From: a virus
Length of the DNA: 44,332 bases
Reading direction: 5' to 3' (one strand)
IMG/VR virus record: IMGVR_UViG_3300038701_002607
Location: 1 to 44,332 of that record
The position numbers and the translations under genes were made by a program. Positions 3,179 through 44,332 of the stretch are shown piece by piece; positions within the stretch are counted from its first letter, which is position 1; each line of letters opens with the position of its first letter. Under the pieces are notes generated by a model. That model was not told the DNA's origin. It made no database searches and saw nothing but the letters and a program-made list of their open reading frames with translations.

Positions 3179-4980
3179 CACTCACCCCCCAACAGACGTT
3201 CAGCGCGCTCGAAGTGATGGTCCATGGAAGCGTCGTTGCCATCGCTCTCTTCCTGGTCAGCAAAGCCATCCGGATCGAAGGTGATGCCGTGTTGGTCGAG
3301 GTGCACCATCAGGCACTTGATTACGCGCCACAGTGAAATATCCGTTTCAGGGTCAACGCCCAGAGCTTCGCGAGCCATCACGAGCTCGCGAATAGCCCAC
3401 GCTGAATCACCGTCCTGTCCGTAATCAATGCGCTGCTTGATGCTCCACCCTTTGTTGAGCAGCTCCCCAATGACGCTGGTGTCTCCATCGCCAAAGAAGA
3501 ACACGGTCTGCTTGTGGCGGTTGTAGTCCTCGCTCGTGGTGTCGCGATGCCAGAAGTTGATGCGCCGGTTGGGGTGGGCCTCAAACCGCGCTGTTTTGGC
3601 CAACGCGTGATAAGCGTTGGTGTCTGTGGTTGAGTTGATGATGGCTACGGCCATGGGCACATCGCCTTCAGTGTGGTGCTTGGCGAGTTTCTCGCAGAAC
3701 TTTGTGACCTTGGGCTGGCTGTAGGGAGGGTTCATAAACCCCTTGCCGTGCCAGTCGCGTTCCAGGCCGTCGTGCTCCTCGAAGTATGCGACGTTGGCGC
3801 CGATCTTCTCCTGGGCGTGCGGATTGGAGCATGGGTCGAGTTCGATCGTGCCCCAAAGCCATGGCCGCACAACCTCTTCGATGAACCACACAGGGGTACA
3901 CCACGCATCGCGGTCCAGTTCCCCGCCTGTCTCCTCGGGAACATCCTCAAGATCCTTGGGTCGATCAGGGGCGGGCAGGCTCTTCTCCTGCTCTTCGCTG
4001 TATCCTGATTCGATGGCGCTCTTCTTTGGTTTGGTTTCTTCTTCGTCCATCAACTCCAACAAATGGTCATGCCACTGTTGCGCCGTCCATTCGCGAGGAG
4101 CGCTTGTGGCGACTTCCTCACGCCGAATGTGACCAGCAACCCACTGGATGCCCAGCGTGTTGGGCGTATTGTAAATCATCAGCGCGATGGTCCAAACCAA
4201 CGCCTTCATGCCTTTTGGGATCCCGCCAAGAGCTTCACCGAGAGAGGGCACACATCCCATAAGCCAGCGCACCTGTTCGGTGACATTCTCGGGTGGATCG
4301 TCGAGACCGCTGACGACCTGTGCCATGCTCAGCACCTTTTGCCACTGGCTGGCCTGCTCCACTGAATCCATATGGAGATTGACCTTGGCGGTATAATACT
4401 CGACCAGATCAACATCTTCGGGGGCCACATCACGAATGAAGACCTCGACGACCATCTTCATAGTCGCCGCATCCGGTTCGTCGACGAACTGCAACATGAT
4501 CGCCCAGGCTACTGCCCTGTATTCGCGCTTGAGGCGCTGCACTTCATAGATGGCAGGGTCACCAGAGAGCACGTCCGCGACAATGGTTTTGACCAGCGAA
4601 GCAGGCGGTTGCTCACGTTGGCTGATGTTCTGGCACCATTCCCACGCAAGCGCACGTTGCTCCTCGGGCAGTGGCGATAGCTCGCGTGCGGTGCTGTCGA
4701 ACACAGGCGGCACAAGACCTTCTTGTGCAATCGTTTGCACATTTCGGGCACCTTCGACAAGTTGGTATGCACGGCGCCGTGAGATGCCCAGCACATCAGA
4801 GCAATAGCCCTCAAAGGTTGTGTGTGTTTCGCGATACAACTTGCCCTGCATGATCTCCATAAGGGCGTCTGCAACCTCCATGAAGGCCCGCTTGCCCCTA
4901 TCGATGATGGCCTCAAGCTCCGCCAGGCGCGAACGTTCGATGTCTGTGAGATAGTCGATGATATCGATCTGTGCTGTCAT
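3178..4980 (-). CDS. Dam-type N6-adenine DNA methyltransferase with DNA-binding-like N-terminal region
   Basis: 600 residues. The C-terminal third (about 355-530) matches phage N6-adenine methyltransferases: WCTP, then IELDPCSN as the AdoMet-binding motif, and GFMNPPYS (about residue 417) as the catalytic NPPY motif. Phage family members usually have only about 170-200 residues, so this is a fusion. The N-terminal 80 residues contain a helix-turn-helix-like segment (LGISRRRAYQLVEGA) after a long helix, resembling DNA-binding parts of plasmid and phage replication regulators. The middle is helical and unrecognised. GGAG six bases upstream of ATG 4980 and an ATGA overlap with the preceding gene support the start. 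Probable role: modifying phage DNA to evade restriction, or sequence-specific regulation. Confidence 0.85.
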   Translation of the reverse strand: MTAQIDIIDYLTDIERSRLAELEAIIDRGKRAFMEVADALMEIMQGKLYRETHTTFEGYCSDVLGISRRRAYQLVEGARNVQTIAQEGLVPPVFDSTARELSPLPEEQRALAWEWCQNISQREQPPASLVKTIVADVLSGDPAIYEVQRLKREYRAVAWAIMLQFVDEPDAATMKMVVEVFIRDVAPEDVDLVEYYTAKVNLHMDSVEQASQWQKVLSMAQVVSGLDDPPENVTEQVRWLMGCVPSLGEALGGIPKGMKALVWTIALMIYNTPNTLGIQWVAGHIRREEVATSAPREWTAQQWHDHLLELMDEEETKPKKSAIESGYSEEQEKSLPAPDRPKDLEDVPEETGGELDRDAWCTPVWFIEEVVRPWLWGTIELDPCSNPHAQEKIGANVAYFEEHDGLERDWHGKGFMNPPYSQPKVTKFCEKLAKHHTEGDVPMAVAIINSTTDTNAYHALAKTARFEAHPNRRINFWHRDTTSEDYNRHKQTVFFFGDGDTSVIGELLNKGWSIKQRIDYGQDGDSAWAIRELVMAREALGVDPETDISLWRVIKCLMVHLDQHGITFDPDGFADQEESDGNDASMDHHFERAERLLGGE

Positions 4981-5405
4981 GTGGTCTCCGTGTTTTTGAA
5001 AGCGCGGTACAGATGCGCGCCGCCTCCGTTGAGTTGTGTGCATTCCAGGCCCAACGCATCACCTTCGGGCGTGTCGATCCACCAGAGCAGATCGTACTCA
5101 TCCACACCGAGCGCTTGCGCCAACCGTTCAAGTGGCATCCATATGCTGTATTCGTTGGATATTTCAGGCGCGAGGACTTCGACAGGTTCAGTGGGTTCGG
5201 CCTGCCTGCCTTCTGACTGTGATATTTGCTCAGGCATGGCTTCGGCGCGTTTCCGCTCGCGCTCTTCCATGCCGTACTCGACGATCGCCTTGACCGCTTC
5301 GACCTCCAGGCCGTAGCGCTCGGCGATGGCTTCGACAGAGCTGCCTGTGGTGTAGTCCCCGACAATCCAACTGGTTTGAGGGTGGATGCGCCTAATCTGA
5401 TTCAT
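4977..5405 (-). CDS. Hypothetical early protein with two helical HTH-like regions
   Basis: 142 residues. The first half reads as a small homeodomain-like region (WIVGDYTTGSSVEAIAERYG, then a following helix), which resembles the helix-turn-helix used by terminase small subunits and transposase-like regulators. The second half has a second helical unit (LERLAQALGVDEYDLLWWID). Start ATG 5405 has GGAG six bases upstream. Stop overlaps the methyltransferase start (ATGA). Possibly a DNA-binding partner of the methyltransferase; not recognised as a family. Confidence 0.7.
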   Translation of the reverse strand: MNQIRRIHPQTSWIVGDYTTGSSVEAIAERYGLEVEAVKAIVEYGMEERERKRAEAMPEQISQSEGRQAEPTEPVEVLAPEISNEYSIWMPLERLAQALGVDEYDLLWWIDTPEGDALGLECTQLNGGGAHLYRAFKNTETT

Positions 5406-13487: not shown

Positions 13488-13961
13488 ATGGAAATTGCCG
13501 CAAAAGACGATACGGAGCAGCGTCCTCAAGATTGGAGCACGGTCGTGCGCGCTGCGGGGTACATCTATCTTGGGTTCACTCAAAGACAGGCGGCAAAAGC
13601 GGCAGGGTGCTCTGAGCGCTCCATTCGTTTGTGGAAGAAGTGCTCCTGGTGGAGAGATGCCGTCGATGAGTTTCGTGACAATGAACTGTACAAAGAGCTT
13701 GAGCAGGTTGCCGTCAAGCGACTGATGATGGCCATCGGTCGAGAAGGTGACACGTCCACAGCGTTGAAGGTGCTTGAGCGCCTTGTGCCCAGCATGGCAC
13801 CACCAGCTCACCGCGCTGAACTGAGCACCGACCAAAACATCAAAGTGGAAGGCACCATCCCCATGGGTCACATCCCCGACAATGTGTTGCTTGGCCTCGT
13901 GGGTGTGGATGTCACGCAACTGAGGGCGACCCCACAGGATGGCGATGACTCAGACGACTGA
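13488..13961 (+). CDS. terS: Terminase small subunit
   Basis: 157 residues. An N-terminal helix-turn-helix (YLGFTQRQAAKAAGCSERSI, then RLWKKCSWWRDAVDEF) recognises the packaging site in this family; a helical oligomerisation part follows (ELYKELEQVAVKRLMMAIG). AGGAAGAGG before ATG 13488 supports the start. It directly precedes and overlaps the large subunit. Two copies of CGCATATT (about 13430 and 13452) and a CATATG precede it, possible regulatory sites. Confidence 0.85.
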   Translation: MEIAAKDDTEQRPQDWSTVVRAAGYIYLGFTQRQAAKAAGCSERSIRLWKKCSWWRDAVDEFRDNELYKELEQVAVKRLMMAIGREGDTSTALKVLERLVPSMAPPAHRAELSTDQNIKVEGTIPMGHIPDNVLLGLVGVDVTQLRATPQDGDDSDD

Positions 13962-15525
13962 CGAGGCGTTTGACTGGGGGGATCTGCGTTCGATCGTTCA
14001 CGGTCCCACGCCCATGGCTGCGTTTGGGCTGTGGGGGTGCCTAAACGACGAGCAGCAACGTTATGTGCTCGACGCACTGCCTGACCGTAACGCGTCCTTG
14101 GCGGAGTTGGGGCGTCGGTTCTTCCGTATCTTCGTCGCGCTGATGAAGCCTCAATATGATCTTGAGTGGTTCCATGAAGTCATCTGCGAAGAGATCCAAA
14201 AGTGGGCGGATGCCAAAGACCCGTATACGCTCCTGTTCTCCATGCCACCAGGGCACGGAAAATCAGAGTACGCGAAGTTGGCCTCGGCATGGTTGATTGC
14301 GCGAGACCTTGATAACCGTATTGCATACGCCTCATACGCACAGCAATTTGCCGATGATCAGGGCGCGGATGTACAGGCCATCGTGGACTCGCAAGAGTTT
14401 CGTCATCTGTTTGGTCATCTGATCAACAGCAGGCGGGCCGTCACCGATGAGACACGCGGTGCAAAGCGTACAGCCGGATATTTCGAGGTCATCGGCGGTG
14501 ACGGGTCATTTAAGACGGTTGGTCGTGGCGGTGGTCTCACAGGCAAACGGCTTGATATCGGGATTGTCGATGACATCCTCAAGGATGACCAGGAGGCATA
14601 CTCTCAGACCATTCGAGACCAGTCCTATCGTTGGTACAACCGCGTGCTCGGCACACGCAAGCGCCCAAAGCGTCCATACCGGCGCCTGATCCTCGCGACG
14701 CGTTGGCACCTCGATGACCTGTCAGGCCGCATCAAGAGCTCAGGCGTGCCCTATGTGGAACTGCGCTTCGAGGCACTTCGTGAGGACATGTCCGACCCTC
14801 GTGACCCGCGCGCATACGGTGAGGCGTTGTGGTCAGATGTGGAGACACAAGAGTCGCTGGAGCGCATTCGAGAGCAAGATCCCGAAGGCTTCGCCGCGCT
14901 GTACCAGCAGAATCCTGTCATTGCGGGCGGCAACATCATCCGCGATGACTGGATACAGACGTACATGCACCTGCCTGACTGCCCCGGTACATGGTATCAG
15001 TCCTGCGACCCCAAACATGGCAGCCGTGACCCTGCATCGAGTGACTTCGTCAACCAACTCTGGTTTCAGCCCGATGACTGGCCAGGGCGCTTGTATCTGG
15101 TCAATGAGGTGCGAGGCGTGCTCGGCACCACCGAGTCACTTGACGCATGGGACCAGTGCCAGGTCATGGAGGTGTGGAACCGGACCTCGGTGCGATTCAT
15201 TGAAGAAAAGGGCGACGGCGTCACCATCATCGACATGCGCCGTGATCAGGTGCCCGGTATCATCGGCGTGCAACCATCAGGTACGAAAGAGCTTCGTCTG
15301 CGCCGTGTGGCGGCATATTATCGTGCTGGCAATATCTATTATCCTGACGAGTCCATCGCGCCATGGATACGTGCACACAGGGCGCAGGTGCTCAACTTCC
15401 CCATGGATGCCAAAGACGATATGGTGGACGCTGAGACACAAATCATTGAACAGGTATTGTTCCCCGTCGACCGTGATGATACATTGACCGCAGAGCAGAT
15501 ATTGGAATTGCAGTCGCAATATTAG
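13939..15525 (+). CDS. terL: Terminase large subunit
   Basis: 528 residues. ATPase motor: Walker A-type MPPGHGKSEY (about residue 105) and Walker B DIGIVDDIL (about 210), followed by LILATRWH as coupling motif. The C-terminal RNase H-like nuclease has DPKHGS, then EEKGDG, and DAKDDMVDA near residue 495. It cuts concatemers and pumps DNA into the procapsid. The start overlaps TerS by 23 bases; ATG 13945 is an alternative with a better spaced GGATGG. Confidence 0.95.
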   Translation: MAMTQTTDEAFDWGDLRSIVHGPTPMAAFGLWGCLNDEQQRYVLDALPDRNASLAELGRRFFRIFVALMKPQYDLEWFHEVICEEIQKWADAKDPYTLLFSMPPGHGKSEYAKLASAWLIARDLDNRIAYASYAQQFADDQGADVQAIVDSQEFRHLFGHLINSRRAVTDETRGAKRTAGYFEVIGGDGSFKTVGRGGGLTGKRLDIGIVDDILKDDQEAYSQTIRDQSYRWYNRVLGTRKRPKRPYRRLILATRWHLDDLSGRIKSSGVPYVELRFEALREDMSDPRDPRAYGEALWSDVETQESLERIREQDPEGFAALYQQNPVIAGGNIIRDDWIQTYMHLPDCPGTWYQSCDPKHGSRDPASSDFVNQLWFQPDDWPGRLYLVNEVRGVLGTTESLDAWDQCQVMEVWNRTSVRFIEEKGDGVTIIDMRRDQVPGIIGVQPSGTKELRLRRVAAYYRAGNIYYPDESIAPWIRAHRAQVLNFPMDAKDDMVDAETQIIEQVLFPVDRDDTLTAEQILELQSQY

Positions 15526-36996: not shown

Positions 36997-37399
36997 ACTT
37001 GGCGAACTGATACAACAATGGGGCGGGCCCGCAGGTGGTCTATTTTTGATCCTGTGGTTGGCGACGAAAGTGCCGGCCATCACGCAGAAGTGGATACCCG
37101 GCCTGGCAGCGTGGTTTGCGTTGAGGTTTAAATCCAAGGATCAAGAGCTCGCGGAGCTGCGCGCGGAACTCAAGGCCCAGCAAGGCAAGAACACCGAAAT
37201 TCTTGAGGCTCAACTGATTGAGGCCAAAGAAGAGATCGAGTTCTGGCGAGACAAAGCATTGCGCGCGCTCAACGATGATGCACCCGCTGTGCGCCGAGAG
37301 ATCAGAGAACGTGTCGACCGAGGCTCATTGCCCGGTGTCGACATGGATGAAATCAGTGAACCTGTGGAGGATGACGATGAGACTGTTGCAACTGAGTGA
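36950..37399 (+). CDS. Single-TM coiled-coil protein (spanin-like or second holin; GTG start)
   Basis: 149 residues from GTG 36950 behind AGGGA. A Pro-rich N-terminus is followed by one hydrophobic segment (GGLFLILWLATKVPAI), a short aromatic amphipathic piece, and a long coiled coil (KDQELAELRAELKAQQ continuing to about residue 100), then an acidic tail. One TM plus a coiled coil in a lysis cluster recalls inner-membrane spanins. There is no outer-membrane partner with a lipobox visible next to it, so this remains a guess. It overlaps both neighbours out of frame. Confidence 0.6.
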   Translation: MPPKTPPALPPTATPELGELIQQWGGPAGGLFLILWLATKVPAITQKWIPGLAAWFALRFKSKDQELAELRAELKAQQGKNTEILEAQLIEAKEEIEFWRDKALRALNDDAPAVRREIRERVDRGSLPGVDMDEISEPVEDDDETVATE

Positions 37400-38144
37400 T
37401 ACACATGTGGGCGCTGGGCAGAACTACGCGTTTTTGCGATGGATTGTGACGTGGATCATCACCCATCTCAACAGCGCCGAATGGGTAATTGGCATCACCG
37501 GTGACCTGGTGGACTCCCCATCGATACCTGCATACAGGGCCATCTCAAACCTCATCGAGAAGTTGCGCGACGCAGGGTTTGATGTGCTCCCCGTGCCCGG
37601 CAATCATGATCTTCACTACGTGGGCCTCGACGCTGGCTTCGGCCAGGAGGTCGGGCGTGAGATGTGGCGTGAGTGGATCGATCCGGTGTCCTCCTGGCGC
37701 AGCAATGACCAGTGGCCTCGCACCTATGACGCGGATGGCGTGACCATCATTGGCATCGACACCAATGCGGGCACATCTGGCAACTGGATGGTGGATATTG
37801 CCAAGGGCATGGTCGGGCGTGACCAGCTCCTTGAGCTTGTCTTACTTGTGCAAGATTTGCACAACGTCGTCTTGGGGCATCACCGGCTGATGTGGGATGA
37901 CGCGTTCCACAGGTTGATTGACGCCGACGAGCTGCTACAGGTGCTCATCGATCAGTCGATGGGGTATGTGTGTGGTCATCAGCACAAACAAGACACATGG
38001 GAAGAAGGCGGGCTGGCAGGCCGTGCATCCCGTCGCACCACGCAACCCGAGGGCGAGGTGTTGCAACTGACCGGGTTGGAGCTGGTGCCCGGATTGCCGT
38101 TTGAAATCATGGATGTGGGGATGCCCGTGCACAAGGCGGCGTAG
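37377..38144 (+). CDS. Calcineurin-like metallophosphoesterase
   Basis: 255 residues with all five family motifs: SDTH (residues 7-10), GDLVD, GNHDLH, GHHR and CGHQHK. These bind a dinuclear metal centre and hydrolyse phosphate esters; substrates range from nucleotides to DNA and proteins. It overlaps the coiled-coil gene by 23 bases and ends the rightward late transcript before the terminator at 38310. It has no obvious role in lysis and may act on nucleotides, tRNA ends or second messengers. Confidence 0.88.
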   Translation: MRLLQLSDTHVGAGQNYAFLRWIVTWIITHLNSAEWVIGITGDLVDSPSIPAYRAISNLIEKLRDAGFDVLPVPGNHDLHYVGLDAGFGQEVGREMWREWIDPVSSWRSNDQWPRTYDADGVTIIGIDTNAGTSGNWMVDIAKGMVGRDQLLELVLLVQDLHNVVLGHHRLMWDDAFHRLIDADELLQVLIDQSMGYVCGHQHKQDTWEEGGLAGRASRRTTQPEGEVLQLTGLELVPGLPFEIMDVGMPVHKAA

Positions 38145-38309
38145 GCGGTGCAATAAAGGGTGATTCTTTGCAACGTGCGTTGACCCATCGCAAAATATGG
38201 TCAAGAATTGCACTTACGATATTCGCAAGGGCGAGCTGCACTTCGGTGTGGTGCGAATGTGCTTTTAAGCACGTGCCCGTGACCAGTTGCATGAGATGAG
38301 CGCTGGTAC

Positions 38310-38344
38310 AAAGAAGGCCTGGTCGCTATGACCAGGCCTTCTTT
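38310..38344. terminator. Bidirectional terminator between late genes and cargo cassette
   Basis: A perfect 15-bp stem, AAAGAAGGCCTGGTC (38310-38324) and GACCAGGCCTTCTTT (38330-38344), with 5-base loop. T-rich on the plus side and, by symmetry, on the minus side. It separates convergent transcripts. The remaining gap 38145-38309 has a small GTGCT-TTTA-AGCAC hairpin and no gene. Confidence 0.88.
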
Positions 38345-38380
38345 GGTTTGTTGGCATCAATAAATATGGGTGGCCAAGTA

Positions 38381-39592
38381 TTATGGGTGAAGTTCCGCCC
38401 ATTTTCGCTTCAACATCACCCCTCTTGTTGAGTCTAGTATGGCAATGGCAGAGCGTATTGCATCAAATGTTTCAAAAAAACTACGGCCCATAATGACACC
38501 ATTTTGATTCATTTTATCAAGTATTTTTGATGCGTCATCAAGGAGTTCAAGGTATCCGTCTTTGGTTAGTTGATACGTTGCTTTCCTCACTCTATGCGTT
38601 TGACTTCGAAGTGCTTGGAAGTAGTGTCCGAAAGAGTCAGGACTGCTTTTAAAGTCAACCGAGTTGGGTTTTGGACCAAGAAACAGACGTTCAGAATATG
38701 TACAGTTAAATGAATCTGGTGGTTTGAGATCTGAAAGAATTGCACGTTCTTGTGCAGTGTCCATAAAGCGCAGGTTACATTCAGACAGACAAGATGGTGC
38801 GTAGTACCAATTACCCCTTCTTCGGTGGGTGTCTTCTTCATTTTTCATGAAGTTGTCGACAGAGAATTTTCTTACGTTGAGCCAATTGCCTGAACAAATT
38901 GCATTTACCGATGCAACACCAAGGCAAAGGCTTTGGTAGTTGGTATATCCAACAACTACCTTTTTTCCCATCAGCTTTAGCCCTGCCACTAGCTCCATGA
39001 GGCCAGAAAACCATTTTTGTTCGCTCACAAGATATTCATTGCTGGGGGTTTCTGGCAACAGATAGATCCCTTCAACATTGCAAGTTTCGAAGAATTCTAG
39101 AATTTTCTGAACGTCCAAATCATTGGAGATGATTTCTGCACCAATTGCTATTGTTGAGTAGAGCGGTAGTTCGTATTGCTGAGCTAAAGCGACTTTGCAG
39201 ATGCTTTCAGTGATTGATAACCAGTCATCTGACCAGCTTGATGCGAACATATTTGGCAAAATAAAAGCCGACGTTTGAAGCTCCCGATTTTTTTCATACA
39301 GTTGATTTAGATATCTGAGTTGAGAATCTTCTGAATAAAATTCGCTGGTCTCATAATCGGATGGCCAAAAAGGGTGGGCGATTATTTTGTGATGATTGCT
39401 TCTTGGTGAGTAAAACTGAGGATCAAGTAATACCTCAGCGCCTTTTGTTTTGGTGATACCTTTTGCCCATTTTGTAAGCTGCTTGGGTGTGGCGTCTCTT
39501 GGGCTGAGCACCACAGTGCCACCTCCCCAAATTTTGGTCATATCCTGACTGAGTTGACCCATTCCGTGTCCGAACTGGATATAAAAATCCAT
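38381..39592 (-). CDS. Cargo cassette protein C: about 400-residue barrel-like enzyme candidate
   Basis: 403 residues from ATG 39592, behind GGAGGG and one base after the kinase stop. It begins MDFYIQFGHGMGQLSQD and continues as regularly alternating strands and helices: GTVVLSPRDATPKQLTKW, AEVLLDPQFYSPR, VEGIYLLPETPSNEYLV, KKVVVGYTNYQSLCLGVASV, NAICSGNWLNVRKFS. That periodicity and the DPQFY, GYTN and SGNW turns suggest a TIM-barrel enzyme, perhaps distantly like tRNA-guanine transglycosylase-type proteins. A Cys-rich piece (YYAPSCLSECNLRF) may bind metal. The C-terminal third is helical. AT-rich codon use unlike the phage body. No family recognised with certainty. Confidence 0.8.
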   Translation of the reverse strand: MDFYIQFGHGMGQLSQDMTKIWGGGTVVLSPRDATPKQLTKWAKGITKTKGAEVLLDPQFYSPRSNHHKIIAHPFWPSDYETSEFYSEDSQLRYLNQLYEKNRELQTSAFILPNMFASSWSDDWLSITESICKVALAQQYELPLYSTIAIGAEIISNDLDVQKILEFFETCNVEGIYLLPETPSNEYLVSEQKWFSGLMELVAGLKLMGKKVVVGYTNYQSLCLGVASVNAICSGNWLNVRKFSVDNFMKNEEDTHRRRGNWYYAPSCLSECNLRFMDTAQERAILSDLKPPDSFNCTYSERLFLGPKPNSVDFKSSPDSFGHYFQALRSQTHRVRKATYQLTKDGYLELLDDASKILDKMNQNGVIMGRSFFETFDAIRSAIAILDSTRGVMLKRKWAELHP

Positions 39593-39593
39593 A

Positions 39594-40445
39594 TCATTTT
39601 CCCTCCAAAGTTTCTTTGATTTCACCGAACCAATCTTGAGCCTCTTGGATGTTCTTTTGGCGTTGGGTCGGATGTTTTTGAATCAATGTTGATATAAAGT
39701 CACTAAATGATGACTCAATGTCCTCTTTTAAGTTGAGTTTTGGTAGTTGTAGCCTTTCTACTCTGTTAATAACTTCAAAGCGATCTTTTGCGTTTTGCAG
39801 GAATGGGTTTTGACCCGTTAATGATTCATACAAAACTACTCCCAAAGAGAATAAGTCTGCTCTGTTGTCGATTTTGTCCTTTTTGTTGCGAACTTGTTCC
39901 GGCGCACTGTACCCGAGCGTAAATACTCCAAATTCTCTTCTTGTCTCGGTGAGAGAATCCATATCCAAGTGTCTGGCTATGCCAAAATCAATCAACCAGA
40001 AGTTATTGTTGATATCAACGATGATATTGTCTGGTTTGATGTCTCTGTGAACAATGCGTTGTTGCTCTGCAAGAGCAAGAGTCTTAAGTATTTGATCGCA
40101 AAGTTTTAGAGCCAAAGCGAACGACAACGTTTTGTGTTTGGCTAATCTTGTTTTTAGGCTTTCCCCATCGATACGTTGTTCAAGTATCCAAATATACTCA
40201 CCCATTGGGGTTTCAACAGTCCCTTTGTTGTGAATGGTTGGCACCCAAATAGCGTCCACCAATTGGGTTGCCTTGATTTCCCTGTCGAGGCGTTCTTCTT
40301 TGTGCTTCTGAATGAGTTTTAAGACAATATTACCGTGTTGCTGATGGTTCCCTGATAAAACAATTTTTTGGCCGCCTTTAGCCAAAAAAGCCAAATCATT
40401 AAGTGACTCAAATTTTTCGGAAACCCAATTAAGGTTGATTGTCAT
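39594..40445 (-). CDS. Cargo cassette protein B: Ser/Thr protein kinase
   Basis: 283 residues, a complete eukaryotic-like (Hanks-type) kinase domain with no membrane segment. Glycine-rich loop LAKGGQKIV is weak; the ATP Lys is in NIVLKLI; catalytic loop HRDIKPDNI (about 131); LIDFGIA (about 154); activation segment ending GYSAPEQ; LFSLGVVLYESLTG of the F-helix. All catalytic residues (K, HRD, DFG) are present, so it should be active. AAGGA precedes ATG 40445; an upstream in-frame start at 40499 lies within the nuclease gene. The gene sits between A and C in one transcript. Kinases in phage cargo can trigger defence (for example Stk-type systems); the trigger here is unknown. Confidence 0.93.
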   Translation of the reverse strand: MTINLNWVSEKFESLNDLAFLAKGGQKIVLSGNHQQHGNIVLKLIQKHKEERLDREIKATQLVDAIWVPTIHNKGTVETPMGEYIWILEQRIDGESLKTRLAKHKTLSFALALKLCDQILKTLALAEQQRIVHRDIKPDNIIVDINNNFWLIDFGIARHLDMDSLTETRREFGVFTLGYSAPEQVRNKKDKIDNRADLFSLGVVLYESLTGQNPFLQNAKDRFEVINRVERLQLPKLNLKEDIESSFSDFISTLIQKHPTQRQKNIQEAQDWFGEIKETLEGK

Positions 40446-40458
40446 ATTCGTATTCCTT

Positions 40459-41238
40459 TTATTCATTGTGTGAATGTTGAATTCTCCAAATCCATTCATT
40501 TAGCAACCAAGAAATGTATGAAGTCTGAGCTGACCGCGCTTTTGGCTTGGACAGTGTTTGGGTGGTGGCGTTTGAATGCGACATCACCCCTATTCCTCGC
40601 TGCCTTGCTTGATTTAACACATCAGATGATTGTGTTTTTGGTATTAGCGCGTGAGATTCAGAACTGAACCAAGTATTTGCGTGGGCTTGGTTTATCAATC
40701 GTTGAGATCCTGTCATTTTTGCTTCAATAGAAAATATATGTTCAATTGCGAAAAATTGATGCGTTGACCTCAACTTACATTTGTTGGTTCGTCTTATGAG
40801 GAGTTGAGCTGCCTCTATTCTGTCTAAGTTAGCGCTGAGGGTTTTAGGGAATAGTTTTTTTAAAAACTCGTACGAAGTCCACCCCATACCAGACAAGACG
40901 TGGAGCAATTTGATATCCAGCGGTTCAAGTTGAGACCTTTCAACCGCCCAATTTTGCATTGCCTTTTTCTTCCAAACGACAGCAACAATATCTGGGTATG
41001 ATCCGCATATTTCAGGTTCAATAAATATGCTCAACCCTGATTTTTTAGGCACGAACCATGTCTGGTTATTGAGGAATTCGCGAACAAATTCTAGCTCAGG
41101 ACCAACAGTTGGCGTCCTTTTTCGAAACCCTAGGCCAATGCCTTTTGATTGCTCATCTGTAACAACTGCACTTGTTCCACAAATTGATTGACAGTTCTTG
41201 TTGGATGTATACATGTCTTGAAGAGTTGTTGGTTTCAT
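40459..41238 (-). CDS. Cargo cassette protein A: PD-(D/E)xK-like nuclease with inserted winged helix
   Basis: 259 residues. The pattern PD (residues 82-83, SYPDIVAVVW) and ExK (172-174, FSIEAKM), followed by NQAHANTW and IPKTQSSDVLNQARQRG, is that of PD-(D/E)xK nucleases, whose QA helix follows the ExK strand. Between the two motifs (about 105-160) is a winged-helix-like unit (LDIKLLHVLSGMGWTSYEFL, then ANLDRIEAAQLLIR). This split is unusual. First gene of the cassette; no Shine-Dalgarno is visible before ATG 41238. AT-rich. It could cut invader or own DNA when the cassette is triggered. Confidence 0.72.
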   Translation of the reverse strand: MKPTTLQDMYTSNKNCQSICGTSAVVTDEQSKGIGLGFRKRTPTVGPELEFVREFLNNQTWFVPKKSGLSIFIEPEICGSYPDIVAVVWKKKAMQNWAVERSQLEPLDIKLLHVLSGMGWTSYEFLKKLFPKTLSANLDRIEAAQLLIRRTNKCKLRSTHQFFAIEHIFSIEAKMTGSQRLINQAHANTWFSSESHALIPKTQSSDVLNQARQRGIGVMSHSNATTQTLSKPKARSAQTSYISWLLNEWIWRIQHSHNE

Positions 41239-42929: not shown

Positions 42930-44048
42930 TTATTGGTTGAACCACATGTCAAACTCGACCTGCTTGGTGCCCAACATGCCCTTCTCGGGAATGATAAGTT
43001 TGAGCTTGCTCCGTTTCTCAACTGAATCCAGGGGCACCTCAAAAGCGATGTATTGTTCTACAGGCAGGCCCGGCTGAAGTTCTTGGACGAGCAGCTCGGC
43101 CTTGTTCGTCATGACCAATGCTCGGGTGGCCTTGCTTGACGCTCTGAACTGCCGACCTTTGGCATCCTTGAGCACCAGGTCGCCTGTGAGCACCGTGCGT
43201 GTTTTGTTGTCCGCGTTTTTGATGCTGTACTTGATGGTGACGAAGGTGCCGCCCTTGGTTGCCTTTTGTTTGATAAATCGGTTTTTGCCGATCTGTTTGG
43301 TCAACTCCGCGCTGATGACCTTGTATTCAAAGTCACCCAGCTTGAAGACCTTTCCGTAGTCGGGTGTCTTCATGTCTTCACGCATTATGGGAAGCAGTAG
43401 GTCGAGAAGCTGCTGCGTTTTGTCTATCATTAAAACAGTTACTTGATCCTGAATATGACCAACCATGATGTGAGAACCCTTGCAATTACCAATGTAACTT
43501 TCAGACTCAAAACTTTCTTGAATTTCTTTTTTGTTCGAAACGATCACCTTCTGTTTAGTGCAGAGCATCAATGGTAATTTTTTAAATGCTTTGTTGTTTC
43601 GCTTAAACTCCTTTGCCTCAATGTAGCTAATTTGTTTATTGAAGGTCATGAGGTGAACTAGGGCGGTGTTGCCAAATATTTTCAGCTTGGGACATAGCCA
43701 GCTGACTCTCTCCAAATGCCCAAATGGTCCACCTTTTTTCTCAATATCTTTAACCACCCACCCTTTTTTACACTTGGGCAAGGTCTCTTTCTTCGTGAGC
43801 GTTTTGCCTGACCACCCAAAGTTGAAGTCACCCAAGGGCTCCTCCGGCAAGAGCTTTGATGGTTGATATTTTGGAGGTTCAGGCGGCTTCTTTTGTGCTG
43901 GTTCAGCCTTTGGCTTGACTGCGACTGGTGGCTTGGTTGTGTCATCGGAATTGTCTGTGATCTTGACTGGCTTCTTGGAGTCGCATCCCAAAATAAACAG
44001 ACAGGCGCTGATGGCGATCAGGTACTTCATTGCATCACTCGGCTTCAT
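42930..44048 (-). CDS. Lipoprotein with DUF4352-like C-terminal domain
   Basis: 372 residues from ATG 44048. A signal peptide ends in a lipobox: MKYLIAISACLFILGC, with acylation expected on the Cys. A Pro/Lys-rich linker (VAVKPKAEPAQKKPPEPPKY) follows, then an AT-richer middle domain with paired cysteines, then a C-terminal immunoglobulin-like domain of DUF4352 type (GGTFVTIKYSIKNADNKTRT, LVLKDAKGRQFRASSKAT, YIAFEVPLDSV). The start could also be ATG 44069 or 44030. It forms an operon with the junction-spanning membrane protein. Lipoproteins made by prophages often block superinfection; that use here is inferred. Its central part differs in base composition from both ends. Confidence 0.82.
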   Translation of the reverse strand: MKPSDAMKYLIAISACLFILGCDSKKPVKITDNSDDTTKPPVAVKPKAEPAQKKPPEPPKYQPSKLLPEEPLGDFNFGWSGKTLTKKETLPKCKKGWVVKDIEKKGGPFGHLERVSWLCPKLKIFGNTALVHLMTFNKQISYIEAKEFKRNNKAFKKLPLMLCTKQKVIVSNKKEIQESFESESYIGNCKGSHIMVGHIQDQVTVLMIDKTQQLLDLLLPIMREDMKTPDYGKVFKLGDFEYKVISAELTKQIGKNRFIKQKATKGGTFVTIKYSIKNADNKTRTVLTGDLVLKDAKGRQFRASSKATRALVMTNKAELLVQELQPGLPVEQYIAFEVPLDSVEKRSKLKLIIPEKGMLGTKQVEFDMWFNQ

Positions 44049-44058
44049 TTTTAAAACT

Positions 44059-44332
44059 TCACTGATCATGGGCGATTTCCATCATTGCGTTGATGATCTG
44101 GGTGTCCTGCATTGGCACATAGCCCGCTTCACGGAACACGAATGCCTTGGGTTGTCCTTGGGATGGCTGCACCAACATGGCGTTGATTGCAGGTTGCCAG
44201 CTCATTAAATCATTCCATGGCATTGACCAGTTTTGGCCATGGCCTTGGCTGACGAAGGTTACGCGTTGGGGAGTGATGACCAAGACTCCTTCACCTTCCA
44301 TGTGGTCATACTTGACCTTGTGTTCGATGATC
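44059..44332 (-). CDS. C-terminal part of the junction-spanning PH-like membrane protein
   Basis: This is the other end of the gene that begins at 658. Bases 44205-44332 duplicate the window start, and 44204-44059 is the unique C-terminal part ending in TGA at 44061-44059. The residues here finish the PH-like domain (EGVLVITPQRVTFV, then a strand with FVFREAG, then an amphipathic C-terminal helix). The only difference between the two copies lies at base 127/44331 (c versus t), changing a Val codon GTC to Ile ATC, which is conservative. Read as a linear sequence it would look like a separate 80-residue gene, but that is an artefact of the cut point. Confidence 0.8.
   Translation of the reverse strand, partial: IIEHKVKYDHMEGEGVLVITPQRVTFVSQGHGQNWSMPWNDLMSWQPAINAMLVQPSQGQPKAFVFREAGYVPMQDTQIINAMMEIAHDQ
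44205..44332. repeat. Terminal direct repeat (right copy), circular overlap
   Basis: Second copy of bases 1-128 with one mismatch at 44331. Joining 44204 to base 1 restores one uninterrupted gene across the junction, which supports circularity over a true packaged terminal repeat. Confidence 0.93.

Follow-up and report, generated by a model that had tools for sequence, protein, structure and literature searches.

What is a compact, AT-rich cassette of three genes doing in a phage genome? The window analysed here, by which we mean the whole stretch of 44,332 bases, is the virus sequence IMGVR_UViG_3300038701_002607. Its ends carry a direct repeat (1-128 and 44205-44332, 127/128 identical), which suggests that the phage genome is probably complete and was circularly assembled. 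The phage is temperate, and the cassette, whose genes are designated A, B and C, occupies a slot bounded on one side by the integrase and on the other by the point where the rightward late genes end. The features used below are:

1073-2179, tyrosine integrase
13939-15525, terminase
37218-38144, plus strand, Metallophos-domain gene, convergent to C across the terminator
38309-38345, no strand assigned, 17-pair terminator-like hairpin separating C from the late phage operon that converges on it
38381-39592, minus strand, gene C, 403 amino acids, TIM-barrel protein with a modelled tRNA-guanine transglycosylase (TGT) fold
39594-40445, minus strand, gene B, 283 amino acids, Hanks-type Ser/Thr kinase, kinase domain only
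40459-41238, minus strand, gene A, 259 amino acids, predicted PD-(D/E)XK-type nuclease with a winged-helix insert
42930-44069, minus strand, DUF4352 lipoprotein-like gene in the lysogenic region

The first-pass annotation had described three leftward genes in tight succession, AT-richer than the phage body and walled off by a terminator, and this description agrees with the sequence in coordinates, strand and spacing. The gap between A and B is 13 bases (B starts with ATG at 40445) and that between B and C is one base, with GGAGG preceding the start of C; a listed ORF of 414 amino acids for C is an upstream GTG extension of the 403-amino-acid gene. The GC contents of A, B and C are 0.41, 0.40 and 0.42, respectively, versus 0.57 in the late genes, and the region of the 17-pair stem yielded eight terminator-like matches versus 3.1 +/- 1.7 in shuffled sequences. 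The DUF4352 lipoprotein-like gene is a second possible moron in this genome.

Protein A is predicted to be a PD-(D/E)XK-type nuclease by its motif set E...D...ExK...Q. The catalytic set is conserved among its homologues (E48 and D83 in 32/33 each; E172, K174 and Q184 in 33/33), and a winged-helix insert, with weak matches to HTH domains, lies between the nuclease motifs at about residues 90-165. Phage, myxococcal and archaeal copies have the insert; those of Burkholderiales lack it, and the nuclease motif is still found in them. No significant match to A was obtained in Pfam, PADLOC, NCBIfam or PHROGs; profile matches to HSDR_N/NucS were weak (E 0.05-0.08), and neither HSDR_N nor a NucS-like protein was matched significantly in a direct hhalign comparison. 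Protein B matches Pfam Pkinase (2.5e-36), and the catalytic Lys, the HRD Asp and the DxG Asp are invariant in the homologues covered; judged by its sequence, it is a complete Hanks-type Ser/Thr kinase that consists of the kinase domain only. Both the layout of A, with its winged helix between the PD and ExK motifs, and the completeness of the kinase had been proposed in the first-pass annotation, and both proposals were borne out. The best PADLOC match of B was PD-T4-6 (E 4.9e-47), and the MAD6 and MkoA models were matched as well. PD-T4-6 is a one-gene Ser/Thr kinase defence system, most of whose PADLOC models are longer than B, which has the kinase domain only. We rejected membership in PD-T4-6 because B is accompanied by C in all loci and by A in all complete loci (see below); the match reflects shared kinase homology.

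Protein C belongs to no family in Pfam, NCBIfam, PADLOC or PHROGs. A single-sequence AlphaFold model was discarded (pLDDT 40), and an alignment-based model reached a pLDDT of 88 and a pTM of 0.92. It is a beta/alpha TIM barrel, in keeping with the alternating strands and helices noted earlier for this protein. Compared by VIA, the model aligned with TGT over 314 residues (Z 20.5, rmsd 3.8), and all 50 VIA matches listed were tRNA-guanine transglycosylases; C models well as a protein of the TGT fold. Plain Foldseek suggested a pyruvate-kinase fold, but these matches had an rmsd near 16, and we rejected them and preferred the TGT alignments; nothing in a viral structure library matched the model significantly. 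Neither C nor its homologues matched the TGT family PF01702, and hhalign of C against 14 TGT-type sequences was not significant, so that we argue for homology from the fold and the motif spacing only.

Conservation in C is concentrated at the ends of strands, most of all in D57-P-Q-x-Y61, which follows strand 3 (D57-P-Q-F-Y61 in the window, i.e., D-x-x-x-Y). In the TGT motif D-S-G-G-F/Y-Q the Asp acts as general acid and the aromatic residue stacks on the base, and D57-x-x-x-Y61 of C resembles this general-acid Asp with an aromatic residue at +4. The nucleophile Asp follows the general acid by 172-192 residues in host TGTs; in C the equivalent distance (176-195) leads to a near-invariant Gly, a site that is placed by spacing. 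The zinc motif CxCxxC was found in none of the C homologues, versus 13 of 14 host TGT ORFs. The Gly at the nucleophile spacing and the absence of the zinc motif make ordinary base exchange by C improbable, and C probably keeps a base-binding pocket without carrying out this reaction. We rejected C as a canonical TGT on the grounds that the zinc motif and, judged by spacing, the nucleophile Asp are absent and that there is no sequence-family match. The C profile also reaches a standalone protein family of Acidobacteriota (probability 98, E 1.8e-13), which has neither A nor B nearby. These standalone relatives (L052-L058) are chromosomal, share conserved DP and FQFEGYMS motifs and match no library family, and some of them have CxCxxC.

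Does the trio exist as a unit outside this phage? The first matches to C were on two plasmids, one of Polaromonas and one haloarchaeal, both with an A-like gene, then a kinase gene and, directly after it, C. In further scans C was matched on three viral contigs and at twelve genome loci, and profile searches added more. When profiles of A, B and C were run over 34 loci in addition to the window, 32 of them, as well as the window, held all three genes in one locus, and the two that missed A were both cut by contig ends. B was directly 5′ of C in 34/34 loci, and A was variable in position: it precedes B in some loci and lies convergently behind C in others. Since the three genes are together in every complete locus, their co-occurrence is more than chance, and an accidental gene order, which had been considered as a way in which the first-pass proposal could fail, does not account for it. 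Identity among C homologues falls to 16-20%, implying that the common gene order does not stem from recent copying. The protein distances are correlated (Mantel r 0.90 for B-C, 0.78 for A-C and 0.76 for A-B; for each pair 0/2000 permutations were as high), B and C being the tightest pair by correlated divergence.

The trio was found in Burkholderiales, Paracoccus, Myxococcota, Armatimonadota, Elusimicrobia, Eremiobacterota, Acidobacteriota, Chitinispirillaceae and haloarchaea, as well as on plasmids and several other phages, and bacterial and archaeal copies on chromosomes and plasmids lie outside recognisable phage context. Its distribution is wide, spanning bacteria and archaea, and patchy, in about 0.3-3% of sampled genomes. 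By profile search, with the query genome counted in each group, C was detected in 4/399 Burkholderiales genomes, 4/284 genomes of the Nannocystis phylum, 1/398 Pseudomonadota genomes, 7/242 genomes of the haloarchaeal class, 2/151 genomes of the Chitinispirillaceae phylum and 12/247 Acidobacteriota genomes, seven of the last 12 being weaker matches to the standalone relatives. One myxococcal copy sits after a tape-measure-like gene, suggesting that tailed phages acquired the trio more than once. Gene A of Nannocystis is seemingly split by the insertion of transposase genes (L006 4610-7066; N-terminal piece 4610-5176).

In five of the seven haloarchaeal copies a metallophosphoesterase gene (YfcE-like by eye) directly follows C:

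L010 9207-9893, metallophosphoesterase after C
L066 10635-11360, metallophosphoesterase after C
L067 8485-9168, metallophosphoesterase after C
L068 5615-6298, metallophosphoesterase after C
L069 3928-4611, metallophosphoesterase after C

It is possible that this enzyme is a fourth component, a phosphatase or counter-enzyme. Given these copies, we weighed the same role for the phage metallophosphoesterase (37218-38144), which differs from the haloarchaeal one in strand and family type; its presence beside the cassette may be chance or perhaps linked to the haloarchaeal fourth gene.

The neighbours of the trio are often restriction genes. HSDR_N proteins occur within 10 kb of 5/30 trio loci versus 0.15 expected (Poisson P 6e-7), the expectation being the density in the same genomes with uniform gene placement assumed and the loci being few. 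HsdM, HsdS and HsdR surround the trio in two genomes, one from the Chitinispirillaceae phylum and one from Acidobacteriota; an hsd operon adjoins it in Paracoccus, and a further Acidobacteriota genome has HsdR immediately upstream of it. At other loci DpnII, Mrr or Eco57I-type genes or N6/N4 methylases are nearby, two trio loci are cargo of TniB/TniQ transposons, and many, some with short flanks, have no restriction-modification gene in their vicinity.

The first-pass annotation knew of no named system with this trio, and none was matched in the libraries used, among them PADLOC of 2023. Literature searches, the scope of which left out preprints and most subscription papers, found none either, so that an earlier description is possible; the databases behind our rating of novelty end in 2023-2026. 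The nearest systems each share part of the trio. PglW of Type 2 BREX and some DndF proteins combine a restriction endonuclease, a winged helix and a kinase in one chain (PMC12839542, PMC10853773). Like the trio, Type 2 BREX PglW and the NERD-kinase DndF bring together a restriction-type nuclease, winged helices and an active Ser/Thr kinase in defence, but they are single large multidomain proteins with a pseudokinase, ATPases, a methyltransferase and PglZ and have no TGT-fold partner, whereas the trio consists of three small separate proteins without an ATPase or methyltransferase of its own. As no PglZ, BrxC-type ATPase or PglX was recognised among the neighbours of the kinase in the window, we rejected membership in BREX/PglW. 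The Dpd (DpdA) and BRC defence loci contain a TGT-fold protein as the trio does (PMC12839542); there, however, a catalytic TGT is found with DpdB/DpdC, or with HerA/PglZ/DUF6079, and no kinase is present, while C lacks the zinc motif and, judged by spacing, the probable nucleophile. The KKP module of Pseudomonas prophages, made up of two kinases and a phosphatase, takes part in antiphage defence (PMC11341870) and is, like the trio, prophage-borne and tripartite with Ser/Thr kinases, but membership was rejected because it has no nuclease and no TGT-fold protein. As PglW/DndF, Dpd/BRC, KKP and PD-T4-6 all lack this trio, we rate it, within the scope of these databases and papers, as new as a candidate system.

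A trio that recurs as a set, often beside restriction genes, looks like an anti-phage defence system. The suggestion of a new defence or exclusion cassette with a sensor-effector logic, made in the first-pass annotation, has thus gained support from the universal co-occurrence, the absence of a named match and the enrichment of type I restriction-modification genes. We consider the chances about even that the trio is an undescribed tripartite anti-phage defence system carried as lysogenic cargo, with C as sensor, B as kinase and A as nuclease. The coupling of B and C, the fact that A can change its place and the classes of enzyme involved point to C as the sensor or signal producer, B as the transducer and A as the effector, which is the most likely order. 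We infer the defence role, the type of ligand and the order sensor-kinase-nuclease. The TGT-fold barrel of C would bind or process a ligand that contains a nucleobase and belongs either to the invading nucleic acid or to the infected cell itself; B, which is invariably paired with C, would turn its signal into Ser/Thr phosphorylation; and A, the winged-helix PD-(D/E)XK nuclease, would be the effector cutting invader or host DNA, resulting in either cleavage of the invading DNA or cell suicide.

The restriction-modification genes among the neighbours and the TGT fold of the C model would also fit a restriction-modification-like arrangement in which C is a DpdA-like transglycosylase that marks self DNA, A cuts unmarked DNA and B regulates; TGT homologues mark DNA in Dpd, and the same was proposed for BRC (PMC12839542). 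The missing zinc site of C and the Gly found where spacing places the nucleophile weaken this reading. In addition, no DpdB/DpdC-like or preQ0/7-deazaguanine synthesis gene was recognised in a reading of the neighbourhoods, made without a dedicated search, and a phage-borne trio would depend on a precursor from the host. We regard this arrangement as unlikely.

We likewise see little likelihood in a toxin-antitoxin or addiction module, with A or B as the toxin and the rest as its control, that would serve to stabilise mobile elements and have no true role against phages. The operon is small and compact and is carried by phages, plasmids and transposons, which would suit such a module, but the trio also clusters with chromosomal restriction-modification loci and has three conserved parts, two of them with intact catalytic centres, and the addiction reading itself overlaps with abortive-infection defence. 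That the cassette would serve the phage only, in lysogeny or late-gene regulation or in counter-defence, with the winged-helix protein A as regulator and the kinase modulating the host, is improbable: it lies between the late genes and the integrase, and KKP provides prophage kinases able to control lysogeny (PMC11341870), but the same trio is found on bacterial and archaeal chromosomes and plasmids outside recognisable phage context, and the A proteins of Burkholderiales have the nuclease motif but no winged helix.

Returning to the sensor-kinase-nuclease system, we tentatively put forward that the trio represents a new class of immunity common to archaea, bacteria and phages, in which a catalytically altered TGT-fold protein would sense a (modified) nucleobase, nucleotide or tRNA and act through a Ser/Thr kinase on a winged-helix nuclease. 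If this is true, a fold of queuosine-type base exchange would have been converted into an immune sensor, and a restriction-like nuclease would be under the direct control of protein phosphorylation in a system that bacteria and archaea share. Search tools would then gain a new, compact family of defence systems, two protein families that are absent from the libraries, A and C, would gain a testable role, and phages would wield this defence against their competitors.
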